A stretch of DNA of 64,000 nt from Ignavibacteriota bacterium. GTDB taxonomy: Bacteria; Bacteroidota; Ignavibacteria; Tepidaquicellales; Tepidaquicellaceae. The position numbers were made by a program, and so were the translations under genes. The notes under the pieces were generated by a model. That model was not told the DNA's origin, did no database searches, and was given only the letters and a program-made list of their open reading frames with translations. Each line of letters opens with the position of its first letter. Positions within the stretch are counted from its first letter, which is position 1. Location of the stretch: assembly GCA_026390735.1 (NCBI GenBank), contig JAPLFJ010000037.1, positions 1-64,000 on the forward strand, in the 5' to 3' direction. Positions 41,409-54,194 of the stretch are shown piece by piece.

Positions 41409-42566
41409 TTATTGTATTCTTGCAACCCAATACTTAGGGTCTTCGGGAATTAAATTCTTTCTTATCTCGAAATGGAATAGCTGACCGTCTAAAGTCTGTG
41501 ATGAACGGGCAATCACCTGACCTGCTTTAACAACCGAACCTCTACTGACATATAAATTATTAACTACTCCATAAACAGAGCGGTACCCGTTGTTATGGCT
41601 TACTATGATAATTCTCCTGTACAGCGGAACATCAAAAACATTCTCTATAATACCATCGGCAACACATCTTACATCAGAATTTTCAGAAATGGAAACATCT
41701 ATTCCCTCGTTGTTTACCACCGTACCAGTGAGAGGACTAACAGATTTGCCAAAATCGTTTACAATGTCAGTGGAATTAACCGGAAAGATGAGTTTGCCTT
41801 TAAGTAATTCGAAATTATCGGAAGAGTAATTCGGCGTACTCATTATTTTGTAAACTGTGTTATCGTTATTAGTGGACAAATAATATTCCAGATCTAGCAG
41901 TCTTGAACGGAGTTTGTCAATCTGGTAGTTGTAATTATCAATGTTAGACCGAAGAAGTGACAAAGAATCTTCTATTGCAGATTTTTCCTCCAGTAACGAA
42001 GAGTGATCCTGCTTTTTCAGGCTGAGATATTTACCAAGTTCAGTTTTGTTAAGGCCAGAGATTTTCTTGCTTTCAAGAAACGCAAATTCTTCATACTTAA
42101 TCTTTTCGAAATCCACTTTACGCGTTTGTGATAGTTTTGTCAGATATTCAAGTCGTGCATAGAATTTAGAAGGGGATTCGGAAGAGAAAAGAATCTGGTA
42201 CTGATAATTTACACCTTTTTTATAGAGAGCAATGATTCGCTTTTTAAATTCATTTTTAAGTTTCTCAATGCTTTCCTTTCGCTGAATAAACTCTATTTCC
42301 TGTTTGATAGTCTTATTAGGAGATGCTCCTGACTTCATATCGGATATTAAATCGGATAAAACTTTAATCTGATTAATGATGTCTTTGAGTTTTAAATTCA
42401 GCGAGGAAATATTTTTGTTGCTAAGTACAGATGAAGCTTCGTATTTCTCAATCTGCAGTTTATAATTATAATATTGTTTCTGCTTATCTTCTCTGGGTAT
42501 ATAATCGGCATAAGAGAAAGAATACCCGAATACCATTAATAGCAATATTTGAATAAATATCTTCAT
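41409..42566 (-). CDS. EnvC-like murein hydrolase activator (degenerate LytM domain)
   Basis: The protein has a signal peptide (about 1-20), a long coiled coil (about 25-230) and a C-terminal LytM/M23 domain (about 258-380). The metal ligands of active M23 enzymes are partly lost: the HxGxD-type site reads N286-E-G-I-D290, and the HxH site reads L363-F-H365-FE. EnvC and NlpD of E. coli also carry degenerate LytM domains; they activate amidases at the division site instead of cutting peptidoglycan. The same role is likely here. It overlaps the upstream glutamine amidotransferase gene by 4 bases. Confidence 0.88.
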   Translation of the reverse strand: MKIFIQILLLMVFGYSFSYADYIPREDKQKQYYNYKLQIEKYEASSVLSNKNISSLNLKLKDIINQIKVLSDLISDMKSGASPNKTIKQEIEFIQRKESIEKLKNEFKKRIIALYKKGVNYQYQILFSSESPSKFYARLEYLTKLSQTRKVDFEKIKYEEFAFLESKKISGLNKTELGKYLSLKKQDHSSLLEEKSAIEDSLSLLRSNIDNYNYQIDKLRSRLLDLEYYLSTNNDNTVYKIMSTPNYSSDNFELLKGKLIFPVNSTDIVNDFGKSVSPLTGTVVNNEGIDVSISENSDVRCVADGIIENVFDVPLYRRIIIVSHNNGYRSVYGVVNNLYVSRGSVVKAGQVIARSSQTLDGQLFHFEIRKNLIPEDPKYWVARIQ

Positions 42567-45990: not shown

Positions 45991-46572
45991 TTAAAAGAAA
46001 ATAAATTTTAAAAGTATGATTATTGAAATTATAATCGCTGCCTGGATAGAACGTTTTTCTGATTTTAATCCATCTTTTAAGTCGAATAACAGATTCGATT
46101 TTATCCCAGAGGGTAATGTTTTTGGAAATGGAAAGAACCTGTGAACATGACTGCAGTAAGTTTCAAAATTATCTTTGTAAGTTATCCGTAAATAACCCTC
46201 TTCGTTAAAAATAATGAGATAATACTGAAATGTAAAATACAATACAGAAACTATTGTCAGAATTGGGAACAATGCATTACTCATAACACCGATACCAGCA
46301 TACATCATTATATTTCCCCAATATAATGGATTTCTGATTATGGCATAGGGTCCCTGAGTTACTAAATTAGAACCGCCTACTCCTGAAGTAGTTCTTGTTT
46401 CGCTACCGGCATAACTTACAGACCATATTCTGATAGATTCTCCGATTAACAATATTAAAAATCCTGTTATCATCGTCATTGGTGTAGGGTTCATGAACAA
46501 TATCATCAAGAATACAAATGGAAGGGGAGTATAGCTGCGATATTTGAACAATATATTACCAAGTTTTTCCAT
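45991..46572 (-). CDS. Isoprenylcysteine methyltransferase-like membrane protein
   Basis: A 193-aa protein with about five membrane spans and the ICMT/phospholipid-methyltransferase core GPYAIIRNPLYWGNIMMYAG, then FNEEGYLRITYKDNFETYCS near the C-terminus, the SAM-binding signature. Bacterial members methylate lipids or small molecules; the substrate is unknown. It is adjacent to the HAD phosphatase gene (1-base gap). Confidence 0.87.
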   Translation of the reverse strand: MEKLGNILFKYRSYTPLPFVFLMILFMNPTPMTMITGFLILLIGESIRIWSVSYAGSETRTTSGVGGSNLVTQGPYAIIRNPLYWGNIMMYAGIGVMSNALFPILTIVSVLYFTFQYYLIIFNEEGYLRITYKDNFETYCSHVHRFFPFPKTLPSGIKSNLLFDLKDGLKSEKRSIQAAIIISIIILLKFIFF

Positions 46573-46573
46573 A

Positions 46574-47311
46574 TTAACCTCCGAAGAGTACTTCCTTTCT
46601 TAATGTTTTAGCATTTTGTCTTTGCTTAATCTGACCTTTGGATATTAATTTAATAAGTTTGTTTTTTATGTCCGCAAAATCTTTGTAGTCATAATAAGTT
46701 ATGTTGTTTTTCCAGCAATAAGATGCGAGTGAGTGTTTCGCGAACACTATATCTGCATAATGACTGACACAAAAATCTGAAACTCCATCGCCAATGAATA
46801 CAGAAATTTCTTTATCGAAATCGTTTGTGTTAGAAATTAGGATATTCCTTTTGCTCATCCCGCAGGAGTTACAGTGTTCATCTGAATGGGGAAAATCGCA
46901 GGACAATTTTAAAGAGCCCTCGACTTCTTTGGTTGATAAAGTATTACAATAAAACGGTAAATCTATGTTAAACTTATTTAAGACATATTTGATATAATAA
47001 TCAAGTCCTTCGCTGAGCAGAAAGATTTCAAAATTATTATCTTTGCAATAGTTTACAAAGCCCAGAAAATAATCATCCAATTCCTGAAGTTCGATAAAAG
47101 TATCAAAAACCTTAAAATCAAAGTCTTCAACTAAATTAAGTTCGCGTTTTATGCATTCCCGTGAAGTAATTCTGCCGTTACTGAAGTCTTCGCACACATT
47201 ATCAAAAGATTTAGCATCTTTTATAAATCTTCCCAGTGCATCAACCCAAACATCTTTTTTTGTCACAGTGCCGTCAAAATCGCAGAATATTTTAAGTTTA
47301 GGGATTTTCAA
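46574..47311 (-). CDS. HAD-family phosphatase, MtnX/SerB-like
   Basis: The HAD nucleophile motif FCDFDGTVT is at residues 9-17, motif II is LLSEG, and motif III/IV is FIGDGVSDFC. A cysteine set C-N-S-C-G within EHCNSCGMSKR is typical of the MtnX-like HAD-IB branch (2-hydroxy-3-keto-5-methylthiopentenyl-1-P phosphatase and relatives). No methionine-salvage genes are near, so the substrate is undetermined. The gene is between smc and the methyltransferase in the minus operon. Confidence 0.85.
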   Translation of the reverse strand: MKIPKLKIFCDFDGTVTKKDVWVDALGRFIKDAKSFDNVCEDFSNGRITSRECIKRELNLVEDFDFKVFDTFIELQELDDYFLGFVNYCKDNNFEIFLLSEGLDYYIKYVLNKFNIDLPFYCNTLSTKEVEGSLKLSCDFPHSDEHCNSCGMSKRNILISNTNDFDKEISVFIGDGVSDFCVSHYADIVFAKHSLASYCWKNNITYYDYKDFADIKNKLIKLISKGQIKQRQNAKTLRKEVLFGG

Positions 47312-47317
47312 TTCAGG

Positions 47318-50300
47318 TTAGTTGTTTTTAAATCTTGTCTCAACGATAGTTGTAACGCCTGGTTCCTGCATAGTAACGCCATAAAGCGTATCTACGGTTT
47401 CCATTGTACGTTCATTATGTGTAATAAGAATAAACTGAGTCTTCTCAGAGAATTTTCTGATCATGTTATTAAACCTGCCAAGGTTAGCCACGTCTAACGG
47501 AGCATCAACTTCATCGAGGACACAGAAAGGAGACGGTTTCACGAGATAAATTGCAAAAAGTAATGCTATAGCGGTTAATGTTTTTTCTCCTCCGGATAAT
47601 AATTCAATTGATGTAGGTCTTTTGCCTCTTGGTTTTGCAGTGATTTCTATCTTCGCCTCAAGAGGGTCTTCACTAATCTTACCGTTTTCATCTTCATCAT
47701 AAACAAGTTTAAGGTTGGCTTCGTCGCCTTCCTGGAACAGTTCTTTGAATATTCTTATGAAATTCTGTCTTATTTCCTCGAATGTTTTAAGGAATCTTTC
47801 TTTGGCTTCATTATTAATCTTGTCGATAGTTTTATTAATATCCCTTTCAGACTCCAGTAAATCGTCTCTTTGTTCAACCATCCTTTCAAGTTCGTCTTTT
47901 TGACTTTGATAATCCTCCCAAAGTAATTGCTGGAACCCACCGCCTAATTTTTTAAACCTGTCAGAGAGGGAATCTATATCCTTATATGCTTTCGTTTCAT
48001 CAAAAGCACCGTCACTCATTAAATAATTTGTACGGGCTGAATCCAGATACGGTAATAATTCTTCAGGGATGCTTTCAATATCCATTTCATATTTCTTAAA
48101 GAGTATTTCCCTGAATTGTTCTGACTTGATTTCGTATTCACGAATTTTAATCTGTGAATCAACAAGCAGCTGAGAAACTTTATCGAACTCACGTCTCTTT
48201 ACTCTTTGTTCCTGTTCAATCTCTTCTTTTTCTGCCTTCTTTTTACTCAGGACTTCTTCGTTCTCATCGAGTTTCTTTTTTATTATATCTTTCTTGAACT
48301 GAAATTCTGTTATCCCTGATAAATTCTTTTCAATAATATTCTTATGCTCTTCTACCTGAACAGTATATTCATTTATCAGTCTTGCATTCTTCTTTGTCTG
48401 TTCAGTTTGAAATTCGAGTGTGTTCTTTAATCTTGAGAGATTATTCTCTTCATTCTTCAGTTCATTTTTTAGTCTGTTAAACTCTATAAGGAAAGTATTA
48501 TAATCGGCCTGGTTTTCGGTATGCTTAATATCAATTTCGGTAAACTCTTCGGATAGAAAAGCCAGTTCTCTCTCTAAGTTTGACTGTTCATTTTCTGACT
48601 TACTTAAATCCTTAATAAGTTCATTTATCAGTTCAGTGAGTTCAATATTATCAGTTTTTAACTTACTGTAAGCATCATCGTTTTCAGTAACGTTTTTATT
48701 AAGTTCTTTAAGTTTAAAAATTATCAGGGCGGAGCCATTATTCAGTTTCCCAAGGTTTTTATTAGAGGCATCAAGAGAAGACCTTAATTCGTTTTCGTTG
48801 ATAGTATCAAATGTATTGATAAGAGATTTCAGTTCTGAGTCTTTACTCTCGAGTGTTTCTTCAAGTTTATAAACATCGGCTCTAAGTTTTTCAATCTGAT
48901 TTTCTCTTCCTAATTTCAGGTTTTCCTCTTTTGTTCTGCCACCTGACCTTACAACACTGTGAGTAACAATATCACCGTCGAGTGTTATAAACTTATAATA
49001 ATTATCAGAGGAAAGTTTGAATGCTGTGTCTAAATCTTCAACGATTATATATTCATCAAGAATATACCTGAACAGAAACTCGTACTCTTTATTCTTTAAT
49101 TTAATGAATGAACCGGCGAATCCATAAACATTCTTATCTTTAAGCAAAGCAGGGTTGTAATAATCAAAGTCTATCGATAAAGGAATCTGGTTTTCCTGTA
49201 TAAGCTTGTCGTTAAGAATGAAAGTAACTTTTCCTTTGTCGTCTGCACTAAGTTTCTCTATTAATTTATTCAAATATCTTGAATCATTGATAATAAGATA
49301 ATTGGAAACTTCACCAAGTGCGGTTTCAATTGCAATCTTAAATTTATCATCAACATTAATGGAATCTATAACTGTACTAACATAATCTATATCAGAATCA
49401 CTCTTTATAGCCTTAATACCTTCCGCATAGTCTTCGAATGTATCCACCAGATGCTGCAGATAAGAAAGTTTACTTTTATTGTTTTCAAGAGTGATAGTTA
49501 ATTCAGTAAACTCGTTCTTCGATATTTCTATTTCTGAACTCAGTTTGTCTTTCCTGTCGAGTTCATCCCTTAGTCTCATCTCTAAAGATTTTTTAACTTC
49601 ATTTTCTTTATCGATTAATGATTCAATATCATTCTTCTCTCTCTCGAGTTTTGAAATATCCTCCAGGAATACCTGATTCGAAGAAGACAGTACAGTTAAC
49701 TGTTCTAAATTCTTTTCCTGTGTGTATTTATTTTTCTCGTAATCGGTTTTCTTTAGTGAGAGATTTTTGTTGCTTTCTTTTAATCTGACGCTGAGTTCAG
49801 ATATTTCAACTTTCTTCCCATTAATTAAAGAAATAGTTTTATCGACGTTAGATTTCTTTTCTACTAAAGACACTTCTGATATTTCCAAAGTACGTTTCAG
49901 AACAGAAATCTTCTGAGAAACTTCATCAGACTTCTCATTATTCTTACTTATACTTTCTGTGAGCGTATCATTTTCTTCGGAAAGTCTCTCGATATTAGTG
50001 TTAAAGCTCTTATTCTTTTCATTATTTACGAGATTATCTTTCTCAAGAGAGTTCAATTCATCCTTGACGTCTTCTAACTCATAATTAATGGACTCAGAAG
50101 TCTCTTCGAGAGAATTAATCTCCGGCTGGATTGAATCATATTTTTCGTTGCTGATAATTAATTCAGCTTCAAGGTTGGACTTTAAAGTCAGGTTTGCATT
50201 CTCATGGTCTTTAATATCCTTAATCTCTGAATGCATTTTATTGTATTCAAAAGTATAGTATATGATTTCGAGCAGCTTTAAATCATTGGCAACAATTTTC

Positions 50301-50944
50301 GCTTCTTCGTTTTTCTTTGCCTGTCTCTCAAGAGTTGCGACGTTCCTTTGTTTTTCACGGATTATATCATTAACTCTTTTAAGAGTTTCCTTAACAGATT
50401 CAAGCTTCTTGTATGTTAAGTCACGGTTTTGTTTGTATGAAACTATTCCCGAGGCCTCTTCAAACATCTTACGGCGTTCATTTTTGACGTGAGAGAGAAT
50501 AGTCTCAATCATCTTTAACTCAATAACTGAATAAGCATCAGGTCCGATACCAGTATCAACGAATAAAGTCTTAATGTCTTTTAATCTAACTTTAGTGCCA
50601 TTAAGGTAATATTCGGTTTCACCGCTTCTGTAGAATCTTCGGGCAATCTGAACTTCGGAATATTCAGTAGGAAGAATATTCCTGTTATTTTGAATAGTTA
50701 ATGCAACTTCTGCTACACTCAGTGGTTTTCTTTTGCTTGTACCGCTAAAAACGACATCATCTCGCCTTTCGCTTCTGAGAGCTTTGTCACCCTGTTCACC
50801 CAAAACCCAGCGTAATGCATCTACAATATTGGATTTACCTGAACCATTAGGACCAACGATGGCTGAAACTCCACCGCTAAATTCGATAGTGGTTTTTTCA
50901 GGAAACGATTTAAACCCAAATATTTCTAATTTTGATAGATACAA
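47318..50944 (-). CDS. smc: Chromosome segregation protein SMC
   Basis: SMC forms the ATP-driven condensin that compacts and separates chromosomes with ScpA and ScpB. The 1,208-aa protein has an N-terminal Walker A GPNGSGKS (31-38), two long coiled coils flanking a hinge (about 500-660), and a C-terminal LSGGEKTL signature with LDEVDAPLD Walker B. All are intact. ScpA/B are not in the window. Its start codon directly abuts the stop of the GH2-like membrane gene, a neighbour with no obvious chromosome role. Confidence 0.97.
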   Translation of the reverse strand: MYLSKLEIFGFKSFPEKTTIEFSGGVSAIVGPNGSGKSNIVDALRWVLGEQGDKALRSERRDDVVFSGTSKRKPLSVAEVALTIQNNRNILPTEYSEVQIARRFYRSGETEYYLNGTKVRLKDIKTLFVDTGIGPDAYSVIELKMIETILSHVKNERRKMFEEASGIVSYKQNRDLTYKKLESVKETLKRVNDIIREKQRNVATLERQAKKNEEAKIVANDLKLLEIIYYTFEYNKMHSEIKDIKDHENANLTLKSNLEAELIISNEKYDSIQPEINSLEETSESINYELEDVKDELNSLEKDNLVNNEKNKSFNTNIERLSEENDTLTESISKNNEKSDEVSQKISVLKRTLEISEVSLVEKKSNVDKTISLINGKKVEISELSVRLKESNKNLSLKKTDYEKNKYTQEKNLEQLTVLSSSNQVFLEDISKLEREKNDIESLIDKENEVKKSLEMRLRDELDRKDKLSSEIEISKNEFTELTITLENNKSKLSYLQHLVDTFEDYAEGIKAIKSDSDIDYVSTVIDSINVDDKFKIAIETALGEVSNYLIINDSRYLNKLIEKLSADDKGKVTFILNDKLIQENQIPLSIDFDYYNPALLKDKNVYGFAGSFIKLKNKEYEFLFRYILDEYIIVEDLDTAFKLSSDNYYKFITLDGDIVTHSVVRSGGRTKEENLKLGRENQIEKLRADVYKLEETLESKDSELKSLINTFDTINENELRSSLDASNKNLGKLNNGSALIIFKLKELNKNVTENDDAYSKLKTDNIELTELINELIKDLSKSENEQSNLERELAFLSEEFTEIDIKHTENQADYNTFLIEFNRLKNELKNEENNLSRLKNTLEFQTEQTKKNARLINEYTVQVEEHKNIIEKNLSGITEFQFKKDIIKKKLDENEEVLSKKKAEKEEIEQEQRVKRREFDKVSQLLVDSQIKIREYEIKSEQFREILFKKYEMDIESIPEELLPYLDSARTNYLMSDGAFDETKAYKDIDSLSDRFKKLGGGFQQLLWEDYQSQKDELERMVEQRDDLLESERDINKTIDKINNEAKERFLKTFEEIRQNFIRIFKELFQEGDEANLKLVYDEDENGKISEDPLEAKIEITAKPRGKRPTSIELLSGGEKTLTAIALLFAIYLVKPSPFCVLDEVDAPLDVANLGRFNNMIRKFSEKTQFILITHNERTMETVDTLYGVTMQEPGVTTIVETRFKNN

Positions 50945-53500
50945 TCAGTTATAACTTTTAATTAACGACACAAAAATGTTTAACGATTTATAGAAAACGA
51001 AGTAATAATAATTAATGCTAAATAAAATAAGGAATATAAATGTTCCATAAATAAACGATTTAATAATTCCTAAATCGAATACATACCTTAATCCATTTAA
51101 TAATTTAAACAAGCTGTATAACAGAACCGCAAAATATAAGTATATTGAAAGAGATATGAAAGATGAACTGCCCGTTAATAATTTACTGAAAATAATACCT
51201 ATTATAAGGAAAATCAGGAATCCGATAAATGACCAGGAGTAGACGGAAAGTGCCGGTCTGAGTTTTATGTTCTTTTTTACAATTTTCAGGCAAAAATTCA
51301 TAAATAAATATACAAAAGTAAACAACAAAACCCAGACTATAGAAAGAATAAAGAATAATAAAAACGGATTATTTATGAATGAATAGAAAATCAACAAGAG
51401 TCCGCTGCTGTCAATTGTTTTTGAAACAATGAAGTTGAAATCTGTATCAGTACGAAGGTGATAAATGATAGTGCTGAAAAACAGTCCGATAGAAGTAGAA
51501 AGATAAAAGAGCAATAGGAAATTCTGTAAACCCGAAATGGAGTTCTGTTCTTTAATGACGTAAAGGAAGTTCTTGGATGTAAATAAACTCTTCCATAGAT
51601 TATCTTTGAAATTCCTTATTTTACCCGATGTAAGTATTAAAAGTATTAAGAGTGATAATCCGATTACTATAAAAAAGTAAGATGAGTTCTGGTATGAGAA
51701 TGTTTCATTGCCCTCGGGTATTTTCTGGAAGCCCTGATTGTTTAACATCCGCTTCAAAATCCCTGAAGTATACTTAGGGTTTCTGTTGAAATCGAATATG
51801 CCGTTTGTGTTCAGAAAAGGGTTATCTGCTGAATGCTGGATAACAATTGGAGATTCTGCATTATAGTCAGCATAGGAATTCATAAATGTGCCTGACAGAT
51901 TCAAAGCGACTTTATACAAATCAGTAAGAAACTTAGCTTGGTACTCTATACTCCTGATATCACCAAATCCGTTTCTGTTGTTATTGTCAACGCTGACACC
52001 AAATCCGGAGATAAAGTTAAAAGAATTAGTCCCGATCTTTTCAATTTTAGATTTAGCCTCATTCAGATTATTATCGATGATATTAAATCCTTTGATACCA
52101 ATAATTTTAGATACTTTATCCTCATCTAAATTTCGGCTTGTATAATATAAGGGTCTGTTATCTAACTGGGAAGCCGATTCTTTAATTTTATTTGCATAAC
52201 TTTCTGATTCTGCAGAAGTGACATCAAAGTCATTGCCGATACCCCAGAAAAGTATTGCGGGGGAGTTTTTATCACGTTTTACAATATTCTCAAAATACTC
52301 AATAGCTTCTTTAACATATTTCTCATCCCCTAAGAGCGATTTAGGAATATTATTAAAAGGAAATTCCTGAAGAACAAACAATCCGATTCTTTGTGCAATC
52401 TTAATCACAATCGGGTTAGCAGATTTCCCAGGCACACGAATACAGTTGAACCCAATATCTTTAATCTTCAACAGATCTTTCTCGGTTTCGGCATAATCCA
52501 GAGCGGAAGCAAATTTAGGCTGATCCTCAGAATAATTGATGCCGTTTAATTTATACTTTGAATCATTAACATACAAATCACTTCCTGCAATTTTAATTTT
52601 TCTGAATCCAGTCTCGCAAATAATATCGTCTATAAGCACATCCTTGTGGAACAGATGAGTCCTGATGATATAGAGTTTCGGGTTATCAGGTTTCCATAAA
52701 TCAATTCCCTTTATTGCGATATTATTCACTGCTTTATAACTCTGATAACTCTTAACATCAAATCTGGATAAAGAACTTTCAAATACTTTAGCAGTATCGG
52801 ACTTCCTGAATATTTCAGTTTTGATATTAAACGAATTATCCTCGGCAATAATATTATCTATATTAAGAGTGTTAATGTTAATTCTGTTTGTCAGTTGAAT
52901 TACGTTATCATTCTCAAAAGTATAGTTAATAAGTGTTTCGCTGATATAAATTTTCGGTACGGCGATTAAATAAATGTCAGATATAACGCCTGCGTAGTTC
53001 TTCGCATAATTAACCTGGCTTGAAAGAGGGAAAGTAGAAGTATTGTTCAGTTCATTCTCAATTCTGATAGAAATAGAATTTTGTGAAAGGACAAGATTTT
53101 CCTGAATCTCGGATGAAATAAGTTTGCACCCGCCATTATTTCTTGATACGATTACATCATTAATCTTAACTTCGGAGTAATAATTAATCCCTTCGGCATA
53201 AAAGATAAAATTGTAATTATTTACTAATGAATCAGATAATTTTAAATCTCTTTTAAGCGAGATAGATGATTTGGTGTCTGCAGCAAAGGGGATATTCACG
53301 TTAGCAGAAGAACCATTATCGATTGAAATATTCCAGGCACCGTTTAAATCAATTTTCAGACGTTTTTCAGAATCTGTAATAGTCTCACTATTTCTTTTAT
53401 CAGAGTTACTTCTTTCATAAATCTTAACCTGTGAAAAGGAAATATTAGCAACTAATAACTGAACAAACAAAAGTATAAAAAGCGAAAACTTATTAATCAA
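50945..53500 (-). CDS. GH2-like protein fused to a multi-span membrane domain, probably not catalytic
   Basis: After a signal peptide (1-23) comes the architecture of glycoside hydrolase family 2: a jelly-roll (about 45-185), an Ig-like domain (about 186-300), and a TIM barrel (about 301-590). The catalytic sites look lost. The acid/base site 'WSxGNE' reads FWGIGND (N423-D424). The nucleophile segment 'sEfG' reads ISGFG, with Gly499 where Glu is expected. From about 607 there is a membrane anchor, then five to six further spans to the C-terminus (about 660-851), somewhat like Yip1/DUF1282 domains. The first part faces the periplasm. It is the first gene of the long minus operon and abuts smc. 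A sugar-binding or sensing role is inference. Confidence 0.8.
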   Translation of the reverse strand: MINKFSLFILLFVQLLVANISFSQVKIYERSNSDKRNSETITDSEKRLKIDLNGAWNISIDNGSSANVNIPFAADTKSSISLKRDLKLSDSLVNNYNFIFYAEGINYYSEVKINDVIVSRNNGGCKLISSEIQENLVLSQNSISIRIENELNNTSTFPLSSQVNYAKNYAGVISDIYLIAVPKIYISETLINYTFENDNVIQLTNRININTLNIDNIIAEDNSFNIKTEIFRKSDTAKVFESSLSRFDVKSYQSYKAVNNIAIKGIDLWKPDNPKLYIIRTHLFHKDVLIDDIICETGFRKIKIAGSDLYVNDSKYKLNGINYSEDQPKFASALDYAETEKDLLKIKDIGFNCIRVPGKSANPIVIKIAQRIGLFVLQEFPFNNIPKSLLGDEKYVKEAIEYFENIVKRDKNSPAILFWGIGNDFDVTSAESESYANKIKESASQLDNRPLYYTSRNLDEDKVSKIIGIKGFNIIDNNLNEAKSKIEKIGTNSFNFISGFGVSVDNNNRNGFGDIRSIEYQAKFLTDLYKVALNLSGTFMNSYADYNAESPIVIQHSADNPFLNTNGIFDFNRNPKYTSGILKRMLNNQGFQKIPEGNETFSYQNSSYFFIVIGLSLLILLILTSGKIRNFKDNLWKSLFTSKNFLYVIKEQNSISGLQNFLLLFYLSTSIGLFFSTIIYHLRTDTDFNFIVSKTIDSSGLLLIFYSFINNPFLLFFILSIVWVLLFTFVYLFMNFCLKIVKKNIKLRPALSVYSWSFIGFLIFLIIGIIFSKLLTGSSSFISLSIYLYFAVLLYSLFKLLNGLRYVFDLGIIKSFIYGTFIFLILFSINYYYFVFYKSLNIFVSLIKSYN

Positions 53501-53966: not shown

Positions 53967-54194
53967 ATGAATGTACAAATCAAAAAAATAAAGAGTGATT
54001 TTGAAGTAGTAAAGAGTACTTATAAGATATGTCCGAATTGTACCAACTTTCAACTGAAGTCACACAGAGATGAGCATTGTAATGTGTGCGGTTCTCTGTA
54101 TATAAGCAGTTGCCCTGCTTGTCTTGAACCGATTATTTATCCCATTTCCAGTTTTTGTCCTGTCTGTGGTACTAATTTAAAGAAAAAAGATTAA
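53967..54194 (+). CDS. Small double zinc-ribbon protein, 75 aa
   Basis: I placed the start at ATG 53967, which has AAGGA about 10 bases upstream; the frame is open to a GTG at 53931 but that lies in a hairpin. The protein has four CxxC knuckles: C22/C25, C38/C41, C49/C52 and C64/C67, in a two-ribbon (double zinc-ribbon) layout with CPNC, CNVC, CPAC and CPVCG. It has no other domain. Such proteins often bind nucleic acid or other proteins. It is 56 bases before rnhB on the same strand. Confidence 0.8.
   Translation: MNVQIKKIKSDFEVVKSTYKICPNCTNFQLKSHRDEHCNVCGSLYISSCPACLEPIIYPISSFCPVCGTNLKKKD

Follow-up and report, generated by a model that had tools for sequence, protein, structure and literature searches.

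A widespread family of predicted pseudoglycosidases with a Yip1-like membrane module, encoded next to smc or, in short forms, next to ftsZ

Glycoside hydrolases of family GH2 (β-galactosidase, β-glucuronidase and the β-galacturonidase 6ncw) are formed by a jelly-roll, an immunoglobulin-like domain and a TIM barrel, in this order, and carry two canonical motifs, W-x-x-x-NE around the acid/base Glu and SE(Y/F)G around the nucleophile. Yip1 proteins (PF04893) are five-span bundles with a cytosolic N-terminal segment; Yip1 itself takes part in vesicle formation in yeast, and its archaeal relatives are predicted to act in membrane remodelling (PMC5898192). A third point of reference is provided by the EnvC/NlpD-type division pseudoenzymes, which two articles describe as degenerate LytM activators built on a dead periplasmic hydrolase fold (PMC7668044, PMC8416486). 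The protein described here, GH2M, has the three GH2 domains in the same order; unlike the GH2 enzymes, it lacks the catalytic Glu pair, is fused to a membrane module and falls in a clade apart from the soluble GH2s of its own phylum. GH2M is encoded in the window, by which we mean the whole 64,000-nucleotide stretch of the Ignavibacteriota bacterium contig analysed here, and comprises the following features.

50945..53500, minus strand: GH2M, 851 amino acids, TTG start and TGA stop; a predicted pseudoglycosidase and Yip1-like membrane protein
53432..53500, minus strand: N-terminal signal peptide of GH2M (residues 1–23, hydrophobic segment 1–18), read from the sequence
52955..53365, minus strand: GH2 N-terminal jelly-roll of GH2M (residues 46–182)
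52598..52954, minus strand: GH2 immunoglobulin-like domain of GH2M (residues 183–301; Pfam and model)
51731..52597, minus strand: GH2 TIM barrel of GH2M (residues 302–590; Pfam and model)
52229..52231, minus strand: codon of Asp424 (GAC), at the GH2 acid/base position in alignments
52004..52006, minus strand: codon of Gly499 (GGA), at the GH2 nucleophile position in alignments
50948..51691, minus strand: six-span Yip1-like membrane module (residues 604–851; hydropathy, model and Pfam matches in relatives)
51533..51619, minus strand: basic, predicted cytosolic loop with amphipathic helices (residues 628–656), the best-conserved stretch across the family

An initial annotation, made from the sequence alone, had proposed that the three-domain GH2 layout is kept, and structure prediction agrees. 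Pfam places the TIM barrel (E 2.7e-15) and the immunoglobulin-like domain (E 1.6e-6) above their gathering scores, and an AlphaFold2 model (pLDDT 78.5) superimposes on β-galacturonidase 6ncw over 523 residues (Z 37.4, 2.6 Å); the jelly-roll is weak in GH2M itself (Pfam E 0.089) and was detected in 19 of 21 relatives. The same annotation had assigned the lost acid/base Glu to Asp424 and the lost nucleophile to Gly499, and both assignments are borne out by alignment. The two motifs read WGIGND and FISGFG. Residue 424 falls on the acid/base Glu of the solved enzymes, and when soluble GH2s from the phylum are aligned jointly with the family, 424 and 499 both come to lie in catalytic columns, with no sign of intact Glu residues displaced elsewhere. 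Nor do relatives with the same membrane part have a working site: none of 133 aligned full-length (long) forms has Glu at both columns (the NE motif is kept in 4 and a nucleophile-column Glu in 32), whereas soluble controls in the same type of alignment retain the nucleophile in 21 of 21 cases and the acid/base Glu in 20 of 21. The loss is therefore neither an alignment artefact nor specific to one genome. The replacements differ by lineage (G, S, A, N, R and others), with one or other Glu surviving singly in some. Because both of the catalytic features that define GH2 hydrolases are missing at these aligned positions, we file GH2M outside that group, as what its sequence predicts to be a pseudoenzyme on a GH2 fold.

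Catalysis by a non-classical route, either substrate-assisted or using other carboxylates of the pocket, would be compatible with the complete GH2 fold, with the near-invariance of a further carboxylate (D545) and with those long forms that keep a nucleophile-position Glu or the NE motif. Against it stand the absence of the pair from every member and the variability of both sites, and a short form of the protein (below) has also dispensed with the jelly-roll and immunoglobulin-like domains. Within the family to which the window's protein belongs, conservation around the barrel mouth, examined as a test for a retained ligand, is higher than elsewhere in the barrel; phylum-wide the mouth has no such excess, unlike in the soluble GH2 controls, which makes a shared ligand less likely. 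We consider an active enzyme quite unlikely, and continue with GH2M as a predicted pseudoenzyme.

The five to seven membrane spans anticipated after the ectodomain resolve into six, with family-averaged hydropathy and a separate model of the membrane module (pLDDT 80.5) both giving a single span, then a basic loop that contains amphipathic helices, then five further spans. Since GH2M has a signal peptide and the loop is positively charged, the GH2 part is predicted to lie outside and the loop inside. The initial annotation did not include the resemblance to Yip1, the loop as best-conserved segment or the ftsZ-linked short relatives. Nine of 13 isolated membrane modules hit the Yip1 profile of Pfam (lowest E 1.2e-7), so membership of this family is likely on sequence grounds, with the window's own copy below significance (no match to PF04893 at E 0.1). 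The predicted five-span bundle, with a segment before it that would be cytosolic if the orientation deduced from charge is right, may correspond to that of Yip1; unlike Yip1, the module has one more span at its start and a large ectodomain attached. A search of the PDB with the module model returned no convincing relative (Foldseek best E 0.63, Z below 5), which is weak evidence and no sign of a new fold. The loop has the family consensus RRFRExxxRxLxRPxNFFxDxRDQ, and its mean Jensen–Shannon divergence of 0.58 compares with 0.29–0.42 in every other region of GH2M. In genome G052 the membrane module alone is left, with an ATG start and the family motifs (E 5.9e-79), 134 nucleotides before smc. 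The conservation peak in the loop, together with this survival of the module alone, suggests that the cytosolic and membrane part is the core of the protein.

Joined to a sugar-enzyme fold, a membrane part of several spans could also be a transporter or flippase to which the ectodomain hands over a glycan, and a glycan carrier was among the earlier suggestions; we found no support for it, and the fusion itself is as specific as the case for it becomes. The module resembles Yip1, which to our knowledge is not a transporter family; the conservation peak lies in the predicted cytosolic loop, with the spans lower; and the PDB search, weak as that evidence is, gave no convincing transporter match. 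We regard this reading as very unlikely.

Immediately beyond its stop codon, GH2M is followed on the same strand by smc and further genes.

47318..50944, minus strand: smc, TTG start immediately after the GH2M stop TGA
46574..47311, minus strand: HAD-family phosphatase, the next gene of the cluster after smc
45991..46572, minus strand: phospholipid/ICMT-type methyltransferase, the gene after the HAD phosphatase

Downstream on this strand the window also encodes lpxB, lpxK and an M23 (EnvC-like) protein, making the earlier description of lipid A and division-related genes a fair one; we describe the cluster from gene order, which does not alone imply a single transcript. The junction with smc had been noted from the window, and an orthologue search reveals that it is conserved rather than accidental: smc is the next gene downstream of the long form, in the same orientation, at 90 of the 119 loci of the family, and these 90 are spread over 20 family-level groups (counted from search tables). 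Linkage counts here and below are not independent events; they would be accounted for by two or three ancestral placements that selection has maintained. At the 84 loci with a placeable start, the distance from the GH2M stop to the smc start has a median of 9 nucleotides (62 within 20 nucleotides and five overlapping), a spacing that fits translational coupling. The linkage persists between proteins with as little as about 20% identity. The HAD phosphatase follows smc in 63 of 87 loci. About 29 long-form loci are without an smc neighbour, a few of them due to a contig end, and have hrcA, purC–ftsW/rodA, fmt or other genes alongside instead. A clear smc was found in 26 of 28 genomes searched, mostly genomes without the GH2M–smc link; dependence of smc on GH2M was rejected, as smc occurs where GH2M is absent (for example, in G108 and G257).

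Several further observations concern these loci. The TTG start of smc (window positions 50942–50944) recurs in 44 of the 84 placeable loci and is kept across several groups; through coupling to GH2M, such a start may limit the amount of SMC. The region has 41 promoter-like sites, close to a shuffled background of 37.0 (sd 5.1). The M23 protein (41409–42566, minus strand) has a coiled-coil-like N-terminal half and a LytM site that appears degenerate by eye (NEGID for the usual HxGID, LFHFE for the usual HLHFE), and from these motifs it may be an EnvC-like activator and a second pseudoenzyme of the cluster. A small open reading frame with CxxC zinc-ribbon pairs (53967–54194, plus strand) lies between GH2M and rnhB. 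In groups f14 and f15, some ten genomes (loci L042, L102, L103, L106, L109, L112, L160, L161, L176 and L177) place the long form between hrcA and a divergent giant gene of about 1580–1950 amino acids, whose product in L177 has a confirmed SprA_N domain of T9SS/gliding type.

Searching with the membrane module alone, and again with the new hits, uncovered short forms of about 460–650 amino acids, in which the barrel and the same membrane module, loop motif included, are kept without the jelly-roll and immunoglobulin-like domains. The GH2 catalytic pair is absent from all 50 short forms checked, in an alignment that is loose at those columns. A short form directly follows ftsZ at the end of a murG–ftsQ–ftsA–ftsZ series in group f44 (order confirmed by Pfam) and lies directly behind ftsZ in f48, f54 and f57, with open frames that touch or overlap in f57; one open reading frame separates the two in f27. 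Group f33 has its short form directly upstream of smc, like the long form, and in f36, f45, f46 and f58 it adjoins neither gene. A 458-amino-acid neighbour of many f36 short forms was considered as a division gene and set aside, its N-terminus resembling a MiaB-type tRNA enzyme. The adjacency of short relatives to ftsZ suggests a role in division or segregation.

The chief alternative is an envelope pseudoenzyme, a sensor or adaptor for lipid, lipid A or surface glycan, which is unrelated to chromosomes or division and shares only a promoter with smc for convenience of expression. The lpxB, lpxK and lipid-type genes of the downstream cluster fit such a protein, as do the roughly 29 relatives located elsewhere and the occurrence of smc without GH2M; a linkage to smc retained across deep divergence and the independent placement of the short form beside ftsZ in five groups speak against it. 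The envelope sensor envisaged in the initial annotation is a possible reading of GH2M, and we hold the wider rival to be a serious contender, if on balance a doubtful one.

GH2M homologues are present across the phylum, to which our family searches were directed (the collection scan being seeded with an alignment narrower than class-wide). Those relatives of the window that carry a name are Ignavibacteria/Ignavibacteriae metagenome-assembled genomes, and 48 of 49 relatives of good quality have a homologue, nearly all full-length, in one open frame and joined to this membrane part. In a tree built from 100 family members and 20 controls, a branch with an SH-aLRT support of 100 separates the membrane family from the rest. 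Between the window and its nearest relative, dN/dS is about 0.04 in the GH2 half and about 0.08 in the membrane half; these are rough values, as dS is near saturation. Both halves are under purifying selection, which rules out a pseudogene. That GH2M might be a decaying, functionless relic is suggested by the dead active site and by three genomes: G257, a relative of G052, has lost the whole gene and kept smc, G052 is truncated and G095 has a split frame. Such decay is contradicted by the strength of selection and by the near-universal presence of an intact frame, and we judge it extremely improbable. The G095 case (L254, 5783–7115), a family member divided over two reading frames, is a frameshift or an assembly error. 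G207, a genome 99% complete, yielded no GH2M and no clear smc; a single assembly gap across the linked pair may be the reason.

NCBIfam matches to GH2M are confined to β-galactosidase/glucuronidase models far below their cut-off (best 124.6 bits against 900), and the literature searched, in which subscription journals are thinly covered, held no published account of the architecture; both are consistent with the original impression that it had not been described. The family is real and widespread, apparently uncharacterised, and offers a specific functional lead that is open to testing.

Gene context and conservation form the functional evidence. Since long forms are linked to smc and short forms to ftsZ or smc, our preferred reading, to which we give an even chance, is that GH2M serves cell division or chromosome segregation as an inner-membrane protein passed on by vertical descent, and is not a glycosidase. 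The cytosolic loop and membrane module would be the working core, contacting or organising division or segregation components at the membrane, and the dead barrel would be an ectodomain that either docks to septal glycan or to an envelope protein or senses one of them as a ligand. By analogy with other division pseudoenzymes, the dead hydrolase fold may regulate instead of cut. The likeness to EnvC and NlpD would extend to mode of working only, as a dead periplasmic hydrolase fold tied to a membrane system and to division (PMC7668044, PMC8416486); the folds are unrelated, and GH2M has no known amidase partner and no known FtsEX-like ATPase. A bolder form of the proposal, a phylum-wide, undescribed divisome or segregation membrane factor whose dead glycosidase reads the septal envelope while its conserved cytosolic loop acts on FtsZ- or SMC-associated machinery, we put forward tentatively and would sooner doubt than assert.

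At minimum, these observations caution against annotating such genes as glycosidases. If the proposal is right, much of the Bacteroidota carries a division or segregation factor that sequence searches show as a β-galactosidase-type protein, a sugar-cutting enzyme has been converted into an envelope adaptor, and there would be a direct, testable link between the state of the envelope and the chromosome or Z-ring machinery.
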